From Alphaproteobacteria bacterium 46_93_T64 (GTDB lineage Bacteria > Pseudomonadota > Alphaproteobacteria > Sneathiellales > Sneathiellaceae), in the NCBI GenBank assembly GCA_002163135.1, contig MAAN01000035.1, positions 124,001-188,000 on the forward strand: a DNA stretch of 64,000 nucleotides, in the 5' to 3' direction. Positions 10,717 to 18,958 of the stretch are shown here, piece after piece. The notes below the pieces were generated by a model, which saw only the letters and a program-made list of their open reading frames with translations, searched no databases and was not told the origin of the DNA. The stretch's first letter is position 1. Each line of letters opens with the position of its first letter. The translations under genes and the position numbers were made by a program.

Positions 10717-11499
10717 TTAAGGGAAATCTTTTAAATCGAATTCTTCGATCACAGACAGGGCACCGGGAAGCGTCAGAAAACGCACAGCCTTATGTGAATT
10801 TACAAATGAAAAAAACTTGTAGGTAATCTCCCATAAAGGCTCATCATACATTATGTGGTGGGATAAAAACCCGGTCGGCTCGCGCGTATCAACACGGCCC
10901 AGTCGCCTGTCACACAAATGATCACATGCCATTTTAAGAATGTCAGCTTCTGCCAGCGTACTTCGACCATTTTTCCAATCAACAGGATCGATATGCGTAT
11001 TAACTTCTGCTAGTCCCTGCACTGGGACGGCAGATGCTCTAGGTTTGTATCTTGATATTCCGTGAAACCCCAACTTGGCGATATCTGGCAGTAAAGCCTC
11101 TCCCACCCGGTTCCATGGCGGCACTAGAAAAGGATAAAAATCGCCCTCAAATAGCGTTTCCATCCGAGCCTTTCCAAGCGTCAGTTCCGCCACCATCTCT
11201 GTTATCGATCTAGAAGCTGGAAATTCTGATTTTTTTTCGCCTTCTTTTGCATGGGATGTATGGGTGACCCCATGTTGCACGAGATGGCAACCGTCCAGAT
11301 CATCCGCAATGTGGGGATCTACATTGTCCGGGATCACAGCCAAAGTCAGCGGGATATCCAGCCGATGTCGCATTTCAAGAAGCCTATCAAAAGCATTGGT
11401 TGGCTCGTTCAAATCATCATCACGCCACCAGAAAGTAGCTGTGATACCAGCCTCTTGCCAAAGATCGAGTTCGTCTTTCAAAGCATCCCAAGACGCCAT
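10717..11499 (-). CDS. Polysaccharide-deacetylase-like protein
   Basis: A 260-residue protein with a WWRDDD segment near residue 22 that matches the metal-binding Asp motif of NodB-type deacetylases. HGVTHTSH near residue 75 fits the His motif and LVPPWNR the third motif. There is no signal peptide, so it is probably cytosolic and acts on a nucleotide- or lipid-linked sugar. The ATG at 11499 is chosen because it follows GGAGA and overlaps the upstream stop as TAATG; a GTG at 11517 would add six residues. Its neighbours are glycosyltransferases. Confidence 0.75.
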   Translation of the reverse strand: MASWDALKDELDLWQEAGITATFWWRDDDLNEPTNAFDRLLEMRHRLDIPLTLAVIPDNVDPHIADDLDGCHLVQHGVTHTSHAKEGEKKSEFPASRSITEMVAELTLGKARMETLFEGDFYPFLVPPWNRVGEALLPDIAKLGFHGISRYKPRASAVPVQGLAEVNTHIDPVDWKNGRSTLAEADILKMACDHLCDRRLGRVDTREPTGFLSHHIMYDEPLWEITYKFFSFVNSHKAVRFLTLPGALSVIEEFDLKDFP

Positions 11500-12656
11500 T
11501 ATCTCTCCGCCAACCAAGATTTCAGCATAGTTACAGTTCTGTCTGCCCCGTCCACATCGATGGTAGCAGATGAGGGCGGCCCTGCAAGGGCAGCATTTAC
11601 TTTAACCGCGAGCTCTTTGGCATCCAATCCATCTTCTTCAGCAATTTGTAAAACCCCTTTTTGCGCGAGTAACTCTGCACGTATGGTTTGCTCAGTCTCA
11701 ACACCCCCAGCATAGGGAACAATTACGGCACGGCATTTCGCATGCAGTATTTCCATTACCGTGTTATAGCCGCCCTGACTAATGGACAAGGCGCAGTTCA
11801 TCAGCAAAGTTGTAAAATCTTTTCGGGCACGTTCGACAATGACACCCTTGGGCGCTAACTCCAGTAAGTCCTGATAGATACTATCCTCAACCGTTGCGCC
11901 AACCATCAAACGCCAAGTCAGATGGCTGGCATTTGACTGCGCCCGAGCTAACATTGCGATTTTAAGTAAATCCGTGCCCACGGCACCACCGCCGCTTGAG
12001 ACAATTACTTCATTGCTTCCAGGTGCCAGCCTGTCGCCCTTCACACCTGTCCGGTCGACCACATACCCCGTATACACGATCTTATCCGAGATCCGTTTTG
12101 TATGTGGAAAGGTTTTATCAAGTGAAATCAGTTCCGGATCGCCATGCACAACAACTTTATCGAAGTACTTTTCTACCAGTGCCAACATCTCATCGTTACG
12201 GCCGGGTTTCATTTGCCCCACCAGAATATCACGAACTGAAGATATGATCAGTGGGGGCGTGTCAGAGGCTTTTGCTGCCTCTAACAGCGGCAGTAATTCG
12301 AACCGCATTTGCCGGCGACCAAAAGGAAACAACTCAGTGATCAAAATATCAGGCGCTACATCGTGGTAGATCTGCAGCAGTTTTTCACTGCGCATTTGGC
12401 GCCAACTGTCATCAATATCGTTGCCATTTTCATCTACCAATTGCTTGAAAAACAAATCCGTCGCGCGCGTCGCTGGCAGTTGCTCAATTTTCGCGTCGCC
12501 AAAATCCATATCAATTTTGTGGCCCCCAGAGACAATTGTCACATCAAAACCGCCTCTCGCCAGATTCCGGCACAATGTCGCTGTCCGGCGCAGATGGCCT
12601 ATCCCCAGCAAATGCTGCACATAAAACAATATTCTAGGGGCAGATTTTTGATCCAT
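11499..12656 (-). CDS. Glycosyltransferase of the GT28/MurG-like type
   Basis: A 385-residue protein with an N-terminal GIGHLRR motif typical of the predicted glycosyltransferases of COG4671. A C-terminal GT-B half carries VIVSSGGGAVG and the donor-binding SQGGYNTVMEIL region. There are no membrane segments. The start overlaps the stop of the phosphatase gene by one base, and its own stop overlaps the deacetylase-like start by one base. It probably transfers a nucleotide sugar to an envelope or exopolysaccharide acceptor; donor and acceptor are unknown. Confidence 0.82.
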   Translation of the reverse strand: MDQKSAPRILFYVQHLLGIGHLRRTATLCRNLARGGFDVTIVSGGHKIDMDFGDAKIEQLPATRATDLFFKQLVDENGNDIDDSWRQMRSEKLLQIYHDVAPDILITELFPFGRRQMRFELLPLLEAAKASDTPPLIISSVRDILVGQMKPGRNDEMLALVEKYFDKVVVHGDPELISLDKTFPHTKRISDKIVYTGYVVDRTGVKGDRLAPGSNEVIVSSGGGAVGTDLLKIAMLARAQSNASHLTWRLMVGATVEDSIYQDLLELAPKGVIVERARKDFTTLLMNCALSISQGGYNTVMEILHAKCRAVIVPYAGGVETEQTIRAELLAQKGVLQIAEEDGLDAKELAVKVNAALAGPPSSATIDVDGADRTVTMLKSWLAER

Positions 12657-13237
12657 TACGCCACATCCAGTTCGATATTTACAGCTTCAGCATGGGGCCG
12701 GCCCAACTCGTCAATCATGAAAAGATGTCCCGCATTCCAATTAAAAGGAACAGGAGATTTGTCTGTCATATCCCAGTTATACGCAAGGGATTTAATAGCT
12801 CTAATCACCCCTTTATGTGTCACAGCGATGGTCGGTGTTTTTAGCTCTTGCAGAAAAGGTAGCAATCTATTTTGAACATCCGCAGGGCTCTCGCCTCCTT
12901 CGGGGCACATCTGAAGTCCTTTGGCTTCGTTATCCTTCATGGCGCTCCCATATTGGGCACGAAGCTCACGGATCGTGTATCCCTCCCATTTTCCCCAATC
13001 CATCTCAATCAATCTGTCATCAAGCACCAGATCAGTTGCACCCAAAATTTGAGCAGTTTGCTCAGCGCGTTTAAGGGGGCTCGATCGCCAATGAAAATGA
13101 GAAAACTGTTCAGGAATTTCACAAGTTTCCAGAATTTCCCGGCCTTCGCTACTTAGTGGAATGTCACGGCGTCCTTGCAGTTTTTTTTGGGCGTTCCACT
13201 CGGTTCTTCCGTGGCGGATAAGGAGTAAAGGGATCAC
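12656..13237 (-). CDS. Histidine phosphatase family protein (phosphoglycerate mutase-like)
   Basis: A 193-residue protein beginning at GTG 13237. The phosphohistidine motif RHGRTEWN is at residues 8-15, SSPLKRAEQTA gives the second Arg, the acid/base Glu lies in EMDWGKWEG, and the second His is in VTHKGVIRA. All catalytic positions are present. It lies between two glycosyltransferase genes with a 4-nt overlap upstream and a 1-nt overlap downstream. It may dephosphorylate a sugar phosphate in the glycan pathway rather than act in glycolysis. Confidence 0.82.
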   Translation of the reverse strand: MIPLLLIRHGRTEWNAQKKLQGRRDIPLSSEGREILETCEIPEQFSHFHWRSSPLKRAEQTAQILGATDLVLDDRLIEMDWGKWEGYTIRELRAQYGSAMKDNEAKGLQMCPEGGESPADVQNRLLPFLQELKTPTIAVTHKGVIRAIKSLAYNWDMTDKSPVPFNWNAGHLFMIDELGRPHAEAVNIELDVA

Positions 13238-14334
13238 AATATTACCTTTTCAACATGAGATTTCAGAGCAGAGCTTGTGGCTTTAAGGCTGCGCTCTTCG
13301 CGTACAAAACGTTGACCTTCATCTCCCATTTTCAATCTGAGAGCCGGATCATCAATCAACGTTCGAACATGATCCGCGAATATCTTCATATCCCCCACAG
13401 GAGACAGCAGGCCTGTTCGGCTATCCATCACGACATCAGGAACACCGCGTAGATTGCCGGCGACAACAGGCAACCCTGCGCGCGCGGCCTCCAAAAATGC
13501 CATCCCGAACGCTTCACCATGAGCAGGCCAGACATATATATCAGAGCGCTCGTAAGTTTTAATCAACTCCGCCTCCTCCAACCTACCCAAATAGGTTATC
13601 CGATCCCCAAATCGCGCAAATAACTTTTCAACATCGGCTCTTTTCTCGCCATCCCCCGCGATTAGCAACTGCCAATCCTCTCCCTCCAGATACTCCAGCA
13701 CCTCTGCCAATTGACAGAAAGATTGAAATTTATCGCCGTCCCGCATCATGGCAACAGACAACAAATTTACTTTTGATCTGGAGCCTCTCTCGATAACGCG
13801 TTCAGTTGTTAAGTTTTCAATGAAAGGGGGCAGGTAAACGAGCGTCTCGGAAGATTTCGCCAACGGCTCAAGACACGCACCATCCAGCCGAGTCATATGA
13901 AATATTCGGTCTGCATTCGAGATGGTCGTAGCTGCTGCGCTATATCCGCTAGCCCAAGGTCCGCCGTCTTGTTTTGGCGCATGGCTCGCCTCAGCCACAA
14001 AATAAGGAATATCCAGTGCATCAGATACAATCGGACCTATCCAATCCGGCGCTTTATGATAAAGGTGATATGAAAACCAGAGGGCTGGTCTTTCATCGGG
14101 CCCTGCCCCCTCGTATTTTGCGATGAGCTTTTGAGCTTCTTGATGAGCAGATAAACGCACCTTTTCCTGAAACTCTGCATCTCCGTTTTTGTCAAAGCTC
14201 CTGAAGGAGGAGGCAAGCTCCACCTCGTAACCCGCGTTTGAGAGCGCCTGCATGAATAAGCGTGCCATCCTCCGATCCCCGGAAGGGGTCGGATGATCTG
14301 GCGATTTCATCGGCGCATAGAACGCGATCTTCAT
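13234..14334 (-). CDS. GT4-family glycosyltransferase
   Basis: A 366-residue GT-B protein. The N-terminal PSGDRRMARLF region is the acceptor-side loop typical of GT4. The donor-site helix includes AHGEAFGMAFLEAARAGLP, with the conserved EX7E pattern, followed by a GLLSPVGD segment. No membrane helices are seen. It is coupled by 4-nt overlaps to the upstream GT4 gene and to the downstream histidine phosphatase gene. The sugar donor cannot be deduced. Confidence 0.87.
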   Translation of the reverse strand: MKIAFYAPMKSPDHPTPSGDRRMARLFMQALSNAGYEVELASSFRSFDKNGDAEFQEKVRLSAHQEAQKLIAKYEGAGPDERPALWFSYHLYHKAPDWIGPIVSDALDIPYFVAEASHAPKQDGGPWASGYSAAATTISNADRIFHMTRLDGACLEPLAKSSETLVYLPPFIENLTTERVIERGSRSKVNLLSVAMMRDGDKFQSFCQLAEVLEYLEGEDWQLLIAGDGEKRADVEKLFARFGDRITYLGRLEEAELIKTYERSDIYVWPAHGEAFGMAFLEAARAGLPVVAGNLRGVPDVVMDSRTGLLSPVGDMKIFADHVRTLIDDPALRLKMGDEGQRFVREERSLKATSSALKSHVEKVIL

Positions 14335-15584
14335 CCAACGTTTCCTTTAGGAAGCTTCACGGACAAACGCTCAATCCAGTTTTGGGCGTCAAATTTACGT
14401 CGCAGCTTCTCATCTCCTTTTAACGAAAACTGAGCTCTTTTTTGAGGATCCCTAATTAACTCTTCCAAAGCCACTCCAAGAGCTTCCGGGCTTCGTTCTG
14501 GTACCAATATCCCTGTTTCTCCGCAATCGATCAATTCTGGAATGGCTGAAACCCTTGTTGAGGCAACCGCTGCCCGCTGACTTTGGGCTTCCATCAGGAC
14601 ATTCGGTAATCCATCACGATCGCCATCCTCCGCAATCCGGCTTGCCAGCACAAAAATATCTGCCTCGCGCAAAGCCTCAAGCACCATTTTTTGGGGTTGT
14701 GCGCCTTTCCAATGGATTTTGTCTGAAATCCCGAGATCATCGGCCTGCTTCTTGAGATCCTTCAACAAGGGACCACCGCCGATATGTGTGAAATGCCACG
14801 CCAGATCGACAGGCAGACTAGCCAGCGCCTTCAAAAGATCGTCATAACCCTTTTTCTTAACCGCCCGGCCCACAGACAATATGCAAACTGAATTTTCTAA
14901 ACTCGAGCCATCCGAAGTATGTTTCTTGTCTAACGGGGCGGTAAAACGGGATAAATCAAGTCCGTGATATAAAAGTTCTACCTTGGTCGGCTCTTCTGCC
15001 AGATCCCGCAGATGCGATACATTAAAGGATGTGCAGGTTACAAGCCACGCCACGTCCTGCAGCTTTTCTGCAAGTTCCCAATCCGGGGAAGTATAGATAT
15101 CCTTCGCATGAGCAGAACAGCTCCACGGCAAGCCCGTAATCATTGCAGCATATCGCGCGACTGACGCCGGCGTATGAAGAAAATGTGCATAAATATGCGT
15201 GGTGTCCGCAGGAAGTTCTGCCGCAAGAACCAAGGCCTGTCCAAACCGACGGACACGGTTTCTGGACTTGTCTCTCGAAAAATCACGCATCCATGTTGAG
15301 AATGCAAGATCATACCCCGGCAGATTTCGAACCCGACGCCAAGCTTTTAATACGCGGACGGGTTCATCGTGCAAATACTCGGGTAAATAGGTAACTGGAG
15401 CCTTGATTTCGTCATGGATAGGGTGACGAGACGTATCGGTTGGATGCCGAAGGGAAATCAAATGGAGGCGATGCCCGCGTTTTTCCAGCGCCAACAATTC
15501 TTGCGCAATAAAAGTTTCCGACAACCGCGGATAACCTTTCAAGACAACAGTGATGACTTCCGGCTGGGTATTTTCTTGCGACAT
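14331..15584 (-). CDS. GT4-family glycosyltransferase, colanic-acid-type
   Basis: A 417-residue GT-B enzyme. The N-terminus has GYPRLSETFIAQEL, a hallmark of colanic-acid WcaL/exopolysaccharide GT4 proteins. The donor region contains SVGRAVKKKGYDDLL and SRIAEDGDRDGLPNVLMEAQ. The ATG at 15584 is preferred over the in-frame TTG at 15590. It heads the ten-gene minus-strand run, and its promoter should lie in the 15585-15811 interval shared with the divergent ABC-type gene. Confidence 0.87.
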   Translation of the reverse strand: MSQENTQPEVITVVLKGYPRLSETFIAQELLALEKRGHRLHLISLRHPTDTSRHPIHDEIKAPVTYLPEYLHDEPVRVLKAWRRVRNLPGYDLAFSTWMRDFSRDKSRNRVRRFGQALVLAAELPADTTHIYAHFLHTPASVARYAAMITGLPWSCSAHAKDIYTSPDWELAEKLQDVAWLVTCTSFNVSHLRDLAEEPTKVELLYHGLDLSRFTAPLDKKHTSDGSSLENSVCILSVGRAVKKKGYDDLLKALASLPVDLAWHFTHIGGGPLLKDLKKQADDLGISDKIHWKGAQPQKMVLEALREADIFVLASRIAEDGDRDGLPNVLMEAQSQRAAVASTRVSAIPELIDCGETGILVPERSPEALGVALEELIRDPQKRAQFSLKGDEKLRRKFDAQNWIERLSVKLPKGNVG

Positions 15585-15811
15585 AAACAATTAAACTCGG
15601 CAATTCAAAATTAATTTAGTAAGCGCTCAGGCCGCTAAATTCAACCTGCAATCTTTATAATTTACCTCTCAGGTTTGCCCACCAAACAAGATTTGTATAA
15701 AGCCCTACAAATTTGTTTCTTGCTAGGAGCGCAACAACTATGGGAGAGTATAAAAATAACTATGCGCTAAATATTAAACAAAAATCCTAGAAACAGGGCG
15801 GGCAATACTGC
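15585..15811. other. Divergent intergenic region between glycosyltransferase and ABC-type operons
   Basis: About 227 AT-rich bases with no supportable gene. It must hold the promoters for both divergent operons. A TATAAA-like element occurs near 15749, but no well-spaced -35 box could be paired with it by eye. Confidence 0.45.
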
Positions 15812-18463
15812 ATGGAAAACAGTATCTACAAATATATTTTGGCTCACAGCAAGAAGCAGCAAATTATACTTACCCTGCTGTCCTGCGCATCCTTTCCGTT
15901 TCTTTATTATTATTTAGAACTTCCCAAAATCATTATCGATCAGGCAATTCAGGCCAAGGATATCGTTTTTCCCGTTGAATATATGGGATTTTCCATAGAT
16001 CAGCAGGCTTTTCTATATGTTGCCGTTTGTATATTTTTAGTTCTTGTCGTTATAAACCAAGGCTTTAAGTACGTCATCAACGTCTATCAGGGCATTACCG
16101 GAGAGCGCATGCTGAGGCGCCTTCGATTTCAACTTTATAGTCACATTTTACGTTTCCCATTGCCCATTTTTCGCAAGAAAAGCTCAGGCGAATTGATCCC
16201 AATGATCACGGCGGAAGTAGAACCCCTTGGAGGGTTTATTGGTGAAGCCTTTGCGCTGCCCGTTTTTCAAGGTGGGTATCTGGTTGTTATTATGGCGTTT
16301 TTGTTGATCCAGAACGTCTATATGGCAATGGCTGCCATTGCACTTTATCCACTGCAAGCCTATTTCATTCCGAAAATGCAGAAAAAGGTAAACTTGCTTG
16401 GAAAAGAACGTGTCCAACGCGTTCGGGCGCTTTCTGAAAAAATTGGTGAAACCGTTGCTGGCGTCCAGGAAATTCATATCCACGATACTTCCAATTACTT
16501 GCGGGCCAATTTTTCACAGCAACTTGGACGTATCTATAAGGTTCGCTACAGCATTTACCTGCTAAAATTTGTTATCAAATTCCTCAACAACTTCATTCAA
16601 CAATTAGGCCCCTTTTTCTTCTACGGCCTTGGCGGCACCATGGTAATTGAAGGAAATCTTGAAATTGGTACTTTGGTCGCAGCTATTTCCGCCCATAAAG
16701 AGATGGCGGCCCCGTGGAAAGCACTTCTGTCCTATTACCAGCGGCGTGAAGATGCCCGCATCAAGTATGAGCAAGTTGTTGAACAATTTGAACCCGCGGG
16801 CCTACGTACTGAGGCTCATCAAAGCACGGAACCTGATCCTTTGCCGTTGCTTTCCGGTGAAATGATTGGATCGAACATCATCCTTTCAGATGATACTGGG
16901 TCAGCTCAGCTAGAAGGTTTAAATATTAGATTTGGGCTGGATAAGAAAATAGCCATCGTTGGTGCAGCGGGTTCTGGCCGCGAAGCTTTGACACAAGTGC
17001 TTGCCCGCCTGATTGACCCTGACAAAGGGCGTATTTCCGCCGGTGACTTAGATATGTTGCAAGCCCCTGAAGCCATAACCGGTCGCCGGATTTCTTATAT
17101 CGGACAGTCCGGATACATTTTTAACGACACTATTGGCGAAAATCTGTTTTTTGGTCTGAAACATCGCCCTCTGCAAGACATTGAAATCCACGACGAGGAA
17201 ATGCAAGAATTTCTGAACAATGACAAAGCTGAGATAAAATTGACCGGCAATAGCCCTCATAATTTCACTGCCGACTGGATTGATTACGCAAGTGCTGGCG
17301 TAACGAACCCTGAACAATTGGATGTGCGCGCCATCGATGTATTGCAAATGGTGGAACTTGGGGATGACGTGTATCAGTTTGGACTTAGAAGCACTCTAAA
17401 TCCACAAGAGGATGTTGAAGAAGCCAGTCTTATACTTGCAGCTCGACGGCGTTTCTTTGAAAAACTAGAGGCAGATCCTGCACTTGCAAATCTGGTAGAG
17501 GCCTTTGAGCAGGATAAATATAATACCAATGCAACTCTGGGTGAAAACCTGTTATTTGGGACCCCGGTTGGCAACAAATTTGATATGGAGCGCCTCGCTG
17601 AAAACAGTTACGTCCAAAAAGTAATTGAAGAAGCCGACCTTACAAGAGCCTTCCTTGAGATGGGATATCATGTCGCCACGTTGATGATTGAGCTGTTTGC
17701 TGACCTGCCACCAGATCACGAATTTTTCCAGCTATATGGCTTCATCAGCTCAGAAGAGCTACCTGAATATCAAGCCATAATTAGCCGTGTCTCTATGGAA
17801 AATGTCGATCAGCTTCGTGAAGAAGATCGGTTGCGCTTTATGTCGCTGCCTTTCAAAGTAATCCCATCACGGCACCGACTCGGTGTGATTACGGATGATA
17901 TTCAGGAAAAAATCGTCCAGGCACGAAAACAATTCGTAGATCATTTACCACATGACTTAGAGGGCAGTATCGCATTTTTCGATGCCGACGCTTATAATGC
18001 TGCTGCGAATATTCAGGACAATATCTTGTTTGGCAAGATCGCCTATGGATATGCGCAAGCCAACGAAAAAATCGGCGCACTTTTGGCGTCTGTTGTTGAA
18101 GAGATGGAACTTAAACGGGCGATTATAAAAGTCGGGTTGAATTTCAACACTGGAGCTGGCGGTGCGCGACTTAGTGAAAACCAGCGGCAAAAGCTCTGTA
18201 TTGCTCGTTCAATTATCAAAAAACCACAATTGCTTGTTATTAATCAAGCCATTGCCTCTTTTGATCACAGAACACAACAACGGTTACTTGAAAATATTTT
18301 AGAAGAATTTGAAGAACGTAGTGTTATCTGGTCCCTAGAGAAACCAGAAATGGCCTATTTGTTCGATCAAATTGTCCTTATTAATGGTGGTGTAGTCGCG
18401 GAGACAGGTGACTATGACCAATTGCAAAAAAGTAGCGAGCAATTTCGAATGCTAACCGCATAA
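15812..18463 (+). CDS. ABC transporter-like membrane protein with a catalytically degenerate, expanded ATPase domain
   Basis: An 883-residue protein with an exporter-type membrane domain (residues about 1-330, six helices) and a C-terminal ABC domain. Every catalytic position is altered. Walker A is GAAGSGRE (384-391, Lys to Arg at 390). The signature is LSENQ (787-791). Walker B ends VINQ (Asp to Asn 811, catalytic Glu to Gln 812). The H-loop His is Glu 843. About 400 residues separate Walker A from the signature, against roughly 100-120 usually. This stretch repeats an ENLLFG-type element three times (438-448, 577-583, 733-741). The frame is intact. It probably binds nucleotide poorly or not at all and may act as a regulated scaffold or channel. 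The cNMP-binding gene follows by 24 nt. Confidence 0.85.
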   Translation: MENSIYKYILAHSKKQQIILTLLSCASFPFLYYYLELPKIIIDQAIQAKDIVFPVEYMGFSIDQQAFLYVAVCIFLVLVVINQGFKYVINVYQGITGERMLRRLRFQLYSHILRFPLPIFRKKSSGELIPMITAEVEPLGGFIGEAFALPVFQGGYLVVIMAFLLIQNVYMAMAAIALYPLQAYFIPKMQKKVNLLGKERVQRVRALSEKIGETVAGVQEIHIHDTSNYLRANFSQQLGRIYKVRYSIYLLKFVIKFLNNFIQQLGPFFFYGLGGTMVIEGNLEIGTLVAAISAHKEMAAPWKALLSYYQRREDARIKYEQVVEQFEPAGLRTEAHQSTEPDPLPLLSGEMIGSNIILSDDTGSAQLEGLNIRFGLDKKIAIVGAAGSGREALTQVLARLIDPDKGRISAGDLDMLQAPEAITGRRISYIGQSGYIFNDTIGENLFFGLKHRPLQDIEIHDEEMQEFLNNDKAEIKLTGNSPHNFTADWIDYASAGVTNPEQLDVRAIDVLQMVELGDDVYQFGLRSTLNPQEDVEEASLILAARRRFFEKLEADPALANLVEAFEQDKYNTNATLGENLLFGTPVGNKFDMERLAENSYVQKVIEEADLTRAFLEMGYHVATLMIELFADLPPDHEFFQLYGFISSEELPEYQAIISRVSMENVDQLREEDRLRFMSLPFKVIPSRHRLGVITDDIQEKIVQARKQFVDHLPHDLEGSIAFFDADAYNAAANIQDNILFGKIAYGYAQANEKIGALLASVVEEMELKRAIIKVGLNFNTGAGGARLSENQRQKLCIARSIIKKPQLLVINQAIASFDHRTQQRLLENILEEFEERSVIWSLEKPEMAYLFDQIVLINGGVVAETGDYDQLQKSSEQFRMLTA

Positions 18464-18487
18464 TTGCCGTGAAAAGGAGTGTGTAAA

Positions 18488-18958
18488 TTGAGCTTGAGAG
18501 AAGAAGTAGAAACCCTTCGGCAAATCCCGCTATTTGCCAAAGTCGATCCATCAAAAATAAAGCTACTCGCTTTCACGTCTGAACGGGTAACGTTTCAACC
18601 AGGCGAATTACTTTGTAAACAGGGTGATATGGGTGATGCGGCTTATGTCATTATTAGCGGACAAGCCGATGTGTTAATCGACACACCTAACGGCTCAATT
18701 CGTGTTGCTACATTCAAGAAAAATGATGTGGTTGGCGAAATTGCGATCCTTATCAACATCCCAAGAACGGCGACAATCAAAGCTTCGTCCGAGCTCACGG
18801 CACTCCGCATAACAAAAGATTTGTTCTTGCGCATGATTTCCGAATTTCCAGAAATGGCTGTTGAAATGATGCGCGTTCTGGCGGAACGTTTGGTACGAAC
18901 AACAGCAGAGCTCCAAAAAGCTCAAGAGAGCCTTCAAAAAGCGGAAAATGACGACTGA
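18488..18958 (+). CDS. Cyclic-nucleotide-binding domain protein
   Basis: A 156-residue single-domain protein with a CAP-family cNMP fold. The phosphate-binding cassette VVGEIAILINIPRTAT retains the Glu and Arg that contact the cyclic phosphate. A C-terminal helix ends in a short coiled stretch. There is no DNA-binding domain, so it is not a Crp-type regulator. TTG at 18488 is chosen because AAGGAG (18473-18478) sits nine bases ahead; a GTG at 18479 would be too close to that site. The location directly behind the degenerate ABC-type gene suggests it is a ligand-sensing partner of that protein; this is inference. Confidence 0.83.
   Translation: MSLREEVETLRQIPLFAKVDPSKIKLLAFTSERVTFQPGELLCKQGDMGDAAYVIISGQADVLIDTPNGSIRVATFKKNDVVGEIAILINIPRTATIKASSELTALRITKDLFLRMISEFPEMAVEMMRVLAERLVRTTAELQKAQESLQKAENDD

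Follow-up and report, generated by a model that had tools for sequence, protein, structure and literature searches.

An ABC exporter fold with family-wide loss of its ATPase motifs, paired with a cNMP-binding protein in Alphaproteobacteria

ABC exporters carry a Walker A motif of the form GxxGxGK[ST] and the signature LSGGQ, with Lys, Asp, Glu and His at the Walker A, Walker B, catalytic and H-loop positions, respectively. A single dead site is a common finding among ABC proteins. Within the exporter fold, natural loss of catalytic residues is known from TM287/288, TAP, CFTR and SUR, and heterodimeric or full-length exporters with a degenerate site have the other in working order (PMC7756269). 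Control of an ABC exporter by a cNMP-binding domain has a precedent as well: the domain attached to HetC binds ppGpp and is required for function, and an ATPase residue of this exporter is essential (PMC10986499).

The window analysed here, a stretch of 64,000 nucleotides from a Sneathiella alphaproteobacterium, encodes a half-transporter of what we call the pseudo-ABC family. Like the type IV exporters MsbA, PglK and TmrAB, its best PDB matches by sequence and fold, the protein consists of a 6-TM domain with a cassette on its C-terminal side, but it differs from them in the joint loss of all ATPase motifs and in an insert of about 300 aa in the helical subdomain; against the MsbA model TIGR02203 it reaches 151 bits, far below the cut-off of 602. 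Unlike in TM287/288, TAP, CFTR and SUR, the Walker A, Walker B and signature motifs are all lost in one chain, with no canonical partner linked to it. HetC and related cyanobacterial exporters have an N-terminal cNMP domain, a C39 peptidase and an essential ATPase, whereas in the pseudo-ABC family the cNMP domain is separate or C-terminal, the peptidase is missing and the ATPase is apparently dead; accordingly, a Pfam search of the window protein found neither an N-terminal cNMP domain nor a C39 peptidase.

No description of this family was found in the open-licence literature, which likewise yielded no ABC transporter family whose half-transporter apparently pairs with itself and has both sites dead in every member. 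SMb20813, called an msbA homologue in S. meliloti (PMC10945364), is only a candidate for the same gene. The fold itself is that of an ABC protein; new is the combination of two lost sites, a triplicated subdomain and the pairing with a cNMP-binding protein.

Degenerate ATPase motifs in the window and across the family

The gene, its transmembrane domain and the altered motifs lie on the plus strand of the window:
15812 to 18463, plus strand: pseudo-ABC half-transporter gene, an intact ORF of 883 codons (883 aa)
15812 to 16801, plus strand: transmembrane domain, aa 1-330, 6-TM type IV exporter fold (PF00664, AlphaFold2 helices)
16961 to 16984, plus strand: degenerate Walker A, aa 384-391 GAAGSGRE, with Lys to Arg (R390) and Ser/Thr to Glu (E391)
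18170 to 18184, plus strand: degenerate signature, aa 787-791 LSENQ
18230 to 18247, plus strand: degenerate Walker B, aa 807-812 LLVINQ, with Asp to Asn (N811) and Glu to Gln (Q812)
18338 to 18340, plus strand: H-loop position, aa 843, His to Glu in SLE(843)

The initial annotation had described an intact frame of 883 codons, which the ORF at 15812-18463 on the plus strand bears out; its interval of 16961-18463 begins exactly at the P-loop glycine G384, but spans only the ATPase half of the protein, from G384 to the stop. According to Pfam, PF00664 matches aa 68-293 (E 9e-22, 78 bits against a cut-off of 28) and PF00005 matches the cassette (E 3e-13, 51 bits against a cut-off of 25) in two stretches, as the insert interrupts it. 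The AlphaFold2 model of the full protein (mean pLDDT 85, pTM 0.79) matches ABC exporters, the nearest by fold being P-gp, TmrAB and TM287/288.

All five substitutions named in the initial annotation (R390, LSENQ at 787-791, N811, Q812 and E843) are found where it placed them. Two further losses add to these, namely the Mg2+-coordinating Ser/Thr of Walker A, replaced by E391, and the aromatic residue of the A-loop, for which the family alignment shows no equivalent at the corresponding column (about residue 359). The protein thus has none of Walker A GxxGxGK[ST], the Walker B Asp and catalytic Glu, the LSGGQ signature, the H-loop His and the A-loop aromatic. Its description as having lost every catalytic residue is still slightly overstated because the Q-loop Gln (Q432) and the D-loop Asp (D818) persist, along with S788 and Q791 of the signature and the P-loop glycines.

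The same losses run through the family. Throughout the genus, Walker A reads GSGR, Walker B ends in N/S-Q and the H-loop carries E/D. A complete motif set occurs in 0 of 92 full-length members, and the combination of K, S/T, D, E and SG in 0 of 159 members, a set made up of the 92 plus distant members picked for low scores and including a few near-duplicates. Taken singly across these 159, and with motif columns whose alignment is unreliable in the group that diverges most (L151, L177-L180), the canonical residue is present at K390 in 78, at S/T391 in 20, at D811 in 26, at E812 in 67, at H843 in 35 and at Q432 in 42 members (26%); the S-G of the signature is found in seven, and 27 members lack all seven motif features scored. 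Better kept are the D-loop Asp (89% family-wide) and the P-loop glycines G384/G389 (91%), with K or R common at position 390, but the P-loop is missing altogether from the most distant members. The same procedure, applied to five canonical ABC exporters, returns GxxGxGK[ST], LSGGQ and DEA in full. As the substitutions recur in identical or similar form genus-wide, no intact set exists among the 159 and canonical exporters read normally, chance or alignment error does not account for them.

The ratio dN/dS is low in every region with measurable dS (e.g. 0.012-0.075 for the pair L054/L094), dS being saturated in many of the pairs compared. Together with the 0 of 159 intact sets and the normal controls, this indicates at the sequence level that the motif loss dates far back, is common to the members and has been tolerated under selection. 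Close homologues of the same architecture with intact Walker A and B, the finding that by its own account would have refuted the initial annotation, were looked for in samples of the genus, the class and the phylum as well as in GTDB contigs and plasmids, and none was found (best 80 of at least 392 relatives); the losses extend family-wide through Alpha- and Gammaproteobacteria. The proposal of a repurposed exporter fold, as opposed to random decay, therefore gains from the family-wide loss, the intact frame and purifying selection alike. A decaying pseudogene, which the disappearance of the catalytic residues might bring to mind, can be ruled out for practical purposes: the frame is intact in all full-length members fetched save one strain record, dN/dS is low and the family occurs in many orders. 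In S. meliloti 1021, one base of the pSymB record (L167, 9001-11713) differs from strain 2011 (L168, 6001-8712) and causes an early frameshift of the pseudo-ABC gene, which is intact in 2011 and other strains; this may be a sequencing error or a laboratory mutation.

Does the cassette still bind nucleotide? Because the Walker A Lys is kept in 78 of 159 members and the catalytic Glu in 67 of 159, weak nucleotide binding is possible in those. One could hence picture an ATP-sensing switch in which the cassette binds nucleotide without hydrolysis and in which this binding, rather than the cNMP protein, determines which conformation is adopted. The conserved P-loop glycines, the common K/R at 390 and the conserved D-loop Asp would fit, and degenerate sites of heterodimeric exporters can hold MgATP unhydrolysed (PMC7756269). 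Such a switch nevertheless appears rather unlikely given that the signature has gone together with the A-loop aromatic and the Mg2+ ligands (S/T391, D811), and that the P-loop is absent from the most distant members.

ATP sites in ABC proteins are composite, and since this chain has lost Walker A, Walker B and the signature alike, both sites of a heterodimer would be short of half their residues, which makes rescue by such pairing improbable. A canonical half-transporter encoded elsewhere, giving one working site as in TM287/288 or TmrAB, would be in keeping with the frequency of single degenerate sites among ABC exporters (PMC7756269) and with the fold matches of the AlphaFold2 model to P-gp, TmrAB and TM287/288, but the locus has no conserved canonical half-transporter, and we consider this arrangement very unlikely.

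A triplicated segment in the helical subdomain

Between the Q-loop and the signature, the cassette is enlarged by some 300 extra residues that are conserved family-wide and went unnoticed in the initial annotation:
17270 to 18106, plus strand: conserved insert, aa 487-765, between Q-loop and signature (family profile A3)
17090 to 17473, plus strand: module M1, aa 427-554 (wider bounds 418-556), with the Q-loop strand, 'TIGENLFFG', helices and a long helix '..AR..'
17495 to 17941, plus strand: module M2, aa 562-710 (wider bounds 553-712), second copy of the Q-loop/helical-subdomain segment ('YNTNATLGENLLFG')
17969 to 18217, plus strand: module M3, aa 720-802 (wider bounds 712-806), third copy, ending in the degenerate signature helix

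Profile-profile comparison with hhalign relates the three modules to one another (E 3.4e-11 for M2-M3, 1.7e-5 for M1-M3 and 1.4e-4 for M1-M2), and none of these scores was reached by any of 100 column-shuffled controls each or by a transmembrane segment. Modelled alone by AlphaFold2, the insert reaches a pLDDT of 93.8 and a pTM of 0.86, and the predicted modules share the order of a strand, an 'NLLFG' helix, short helices and a long helix that carries a conserved AR. Searches of the PDB and of the viral BFVD returned no match to the insert fold (best E 0.78 and 0.39). Our reading, drawn from profiles and models, is that the insert represents a triplication of the Q-loop/helical subdomain, with the relation of M1 the weaker one.

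The insert also serves as a marker, since profile A3 was built from it alone. It matches 131 of 385 sampled alphaproteobacterial genomes, mostly once per genome, and 31 of 398 genomes in a phylum-wide draw, all of them Alphaproteobacteria. About a third of the sampled Alphaproteobacteria, rhizobia included, therefore carry the family under the annotation 'ABC transporter ATP-binding protein', the label also borne by 262 records of plasmid-borne rhizobial homologues. Of 25 genomes of the genus, 22 encode orthologues of the same architecture, which also occur in three of the further families sampled within the class. Among the best 80 of at least 392 relatives, named ones come from Alphaproteobacteria and from gammaproteobacterial MAGs, and gammaproteobacterial members are known solely from MAGs among the relatives listed. 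Two near-complete genus genomes, G009 and G017, are without the gene, which suggests from the genome sequences that it can be lost. One member (L064) stems from a MAG labelled Anaerolineae and groups inside the alphaproteobacterial ones; it is probably a mis-binned contig.

The cNMP-binding partner, the glycosyltransferase operon and a possible working

Directly downstream of the pseudo-ABC gene lies a small gene whose product has PF00027 (E 9e-20) as its sole Pfam domain:
18479 to 18958, plus strand: cNMP-binding partner, 159 aa, 15-base gap downstream of the pseudo-ABC gene
18734 to 18766, plus strand: phosphate-binding cassette of the partner, GEIAILINIPR, residues G86/E87/R96

Pfam found no HTH DNA-binding domain in the 159 aa, which sets the protein apart from Crp/Fnr transcription factors. 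Its match to TIGR03896, the bacteriocin-type transport-associated cNMP proteins, is weak (E 5e-11, 42 bits against a cut-off of 161), and no bacteriocin genes were seen at the locus. In the profile search, the partner adjoins 95 of 131 loci and is fused to the C-terminus of the pseudo-ABC protein in another 14 of the 131; at nine further loci it overlaps the ORF end and was missed by the gap rule, and three loci stop at a contig edge. This gives about 118 of 128 scorable loci, some of them duplicates from one genome, at which the partner is directly downstream or C-terminally fused, and the fusions were confirmed by Pfam. Some gammaproteobacterial members and the f70 and f87 lineages have no cNMP partner nearby. 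Within the partner domains, the cassette retains its Gly in 118 of 118, its Glu in 111 of 118 and its Arg in 118 of 118 cases. The link to the neighbouring cNMP-binding protein, a guess in the initial annotation, thus receives strong support, and the main argument for ligand control is that the sensor retains its ligand site while the ATPase decays.

A second conserved neighbourhood, overlooked in the initial annotation, is an operon on the opposite strand at 10717-15590, conserved in Alpha- and Gammaproteobacteria. Counts refer to 60 loci with enough flank, where the genes are mostly divergently transcribed and upstream of the pseudo-ABC gene, and those for the two GT4 genes are approximate because these may cross-match as paralogues:
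14331 to 15590, minus strand: GT4-type glycosyltransferase, first operon gene (PF00534, E 3e-30; 51 of 60 loci)
13234 to 14334, minus strand: second GT4-type glycosyltransferase (PF00534, E 1e-26; 50 of 60 loci)
12656 to 13237, minus strand: histidine phosphatase (PF00300, E 4e-37; 42 of 60 loci)
11499 to 12656, minus strand: GT28-like glycosyltransferase (PF04101, E 2e-7; 50 of 60 loci)
10717 to 11517, minus strand: polysaccharide-deacetylase-like protein, a weak assignment (PF10096 DUF2334 below its cut-off; 32 of 60 loci)

In R. johnstonii 3841 and S. meliloti, the glycosyltransferases, the pseudo-ABC gene and the cNMP protein are kept together in the same order. The glycan link is not universal, as fused members such as L106 (Thalassospira) and L158 lie apart from glycosyltransferases, which are likewise absent beside the fused roseobacter-type L141-L146 and L166. 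AmpG and an acyl-CoA ligase were discarded as functional partners, being found downstream in just 7-8 of 60 loci.

Taken together, the loss of the ATPase residues and the pairing or fusion with an apparently intact cNMP sensor suggest that the protein is probably signal-switched rather than ATP-powered. Our best reading, in which we place a little more belief than doubt, is that an ABC fold with a dead ATPase is switched by a cyclic nucleotide and serves a surface-glycan pathway. The common ancestor of every member seen would already have lost the ATPase, and the cassette would have been retained as a structural and regulatory module enlarged by the triplicated Q-loop/helical-subdomain segment. 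The cNMP protein, separate or fused, would bind a cyclic nucleotide or similar ligand and act on this enlarged cassette; through the helical subdomain it might hold or move the two cassettes of a presumably homodimeric fold that makes no use of ATP. In ordinary exporters, the helical subdomain contacts the coupling helices, and movement of the cassette could be passed to the transmembrane domain via normal coupling helices of this kind. The transmembrane unit would then serve the operon's glycan, its putative substrate; it could be a gated flippase or channel for a lipid-glycan, or else switch the glycosyltransferases. More specifically, and tentatively, it may be an ABC-fold channel or lipid-glycan scramblase that is gated by a cyclic nucleotide, works independently of ATP and has the triplicated subdomain as the receiver for the cNMP subunit, a version we see as possible rather than probable.

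The protein might also be a pure scaffold or regulator of a glycosyltransferase complex, with nothing crossing the membrane, comparable to SUR on Kir6. The dead ATPase, the conserved linkage to the operon and the large conserved surface insert would all suit such a role, which we nonetheless hold to be improbable as the transmembrane domain is the best-conserved region of the family. This is a weak argument, since a canonical control exporter trends the same way within the genus (0.789 for its TMD and 0.724 for its NBD, against the stronger contrast of 0.811 to 0.704 and 0.594 in the pseudo-ABC protein). The same control weakens the idea that higher conservation of the TMD than of the cassette marks a lost ATPase.

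If cNMP gating of the pseudo-ABC fold holds true, the family would offer a prokaryotic parallel to CFTR and SUR, where a protein with the fold of a pump has become gated or regulatory, as well as a cyclic-nucleotide target outside transcription. It constitutes a natural test of the role of the ABC cassette once ATP is removed, and the question is testable in model rhizobia because the pairing with the glycosyltransferase operon is conserved there.

As for the cNMP fusion, a tree of the transmembrane domain asks for just three changes between the fused and the separate state, two of them forced by well-supported branches; many independent fusions, considered as an alternative, are not called for when at least two to three changes suffice, and judging by this tree the fusion is one that was gained or lost a few times. 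Three divergent fused copies (L143, L145 and L146) come from one genome (G177), none with a recognisable Walker A. A very divergent group (L151, L177, L179 and L180; branch length >4, odd composition) is possibly a further-derived relative, and no cNMP gene was found near L151. In L075 and L085, Pfam places a GGDEF domain after the fused cNMP domain, and L099 carries similar sequence, a link to a second nucleotide signal.
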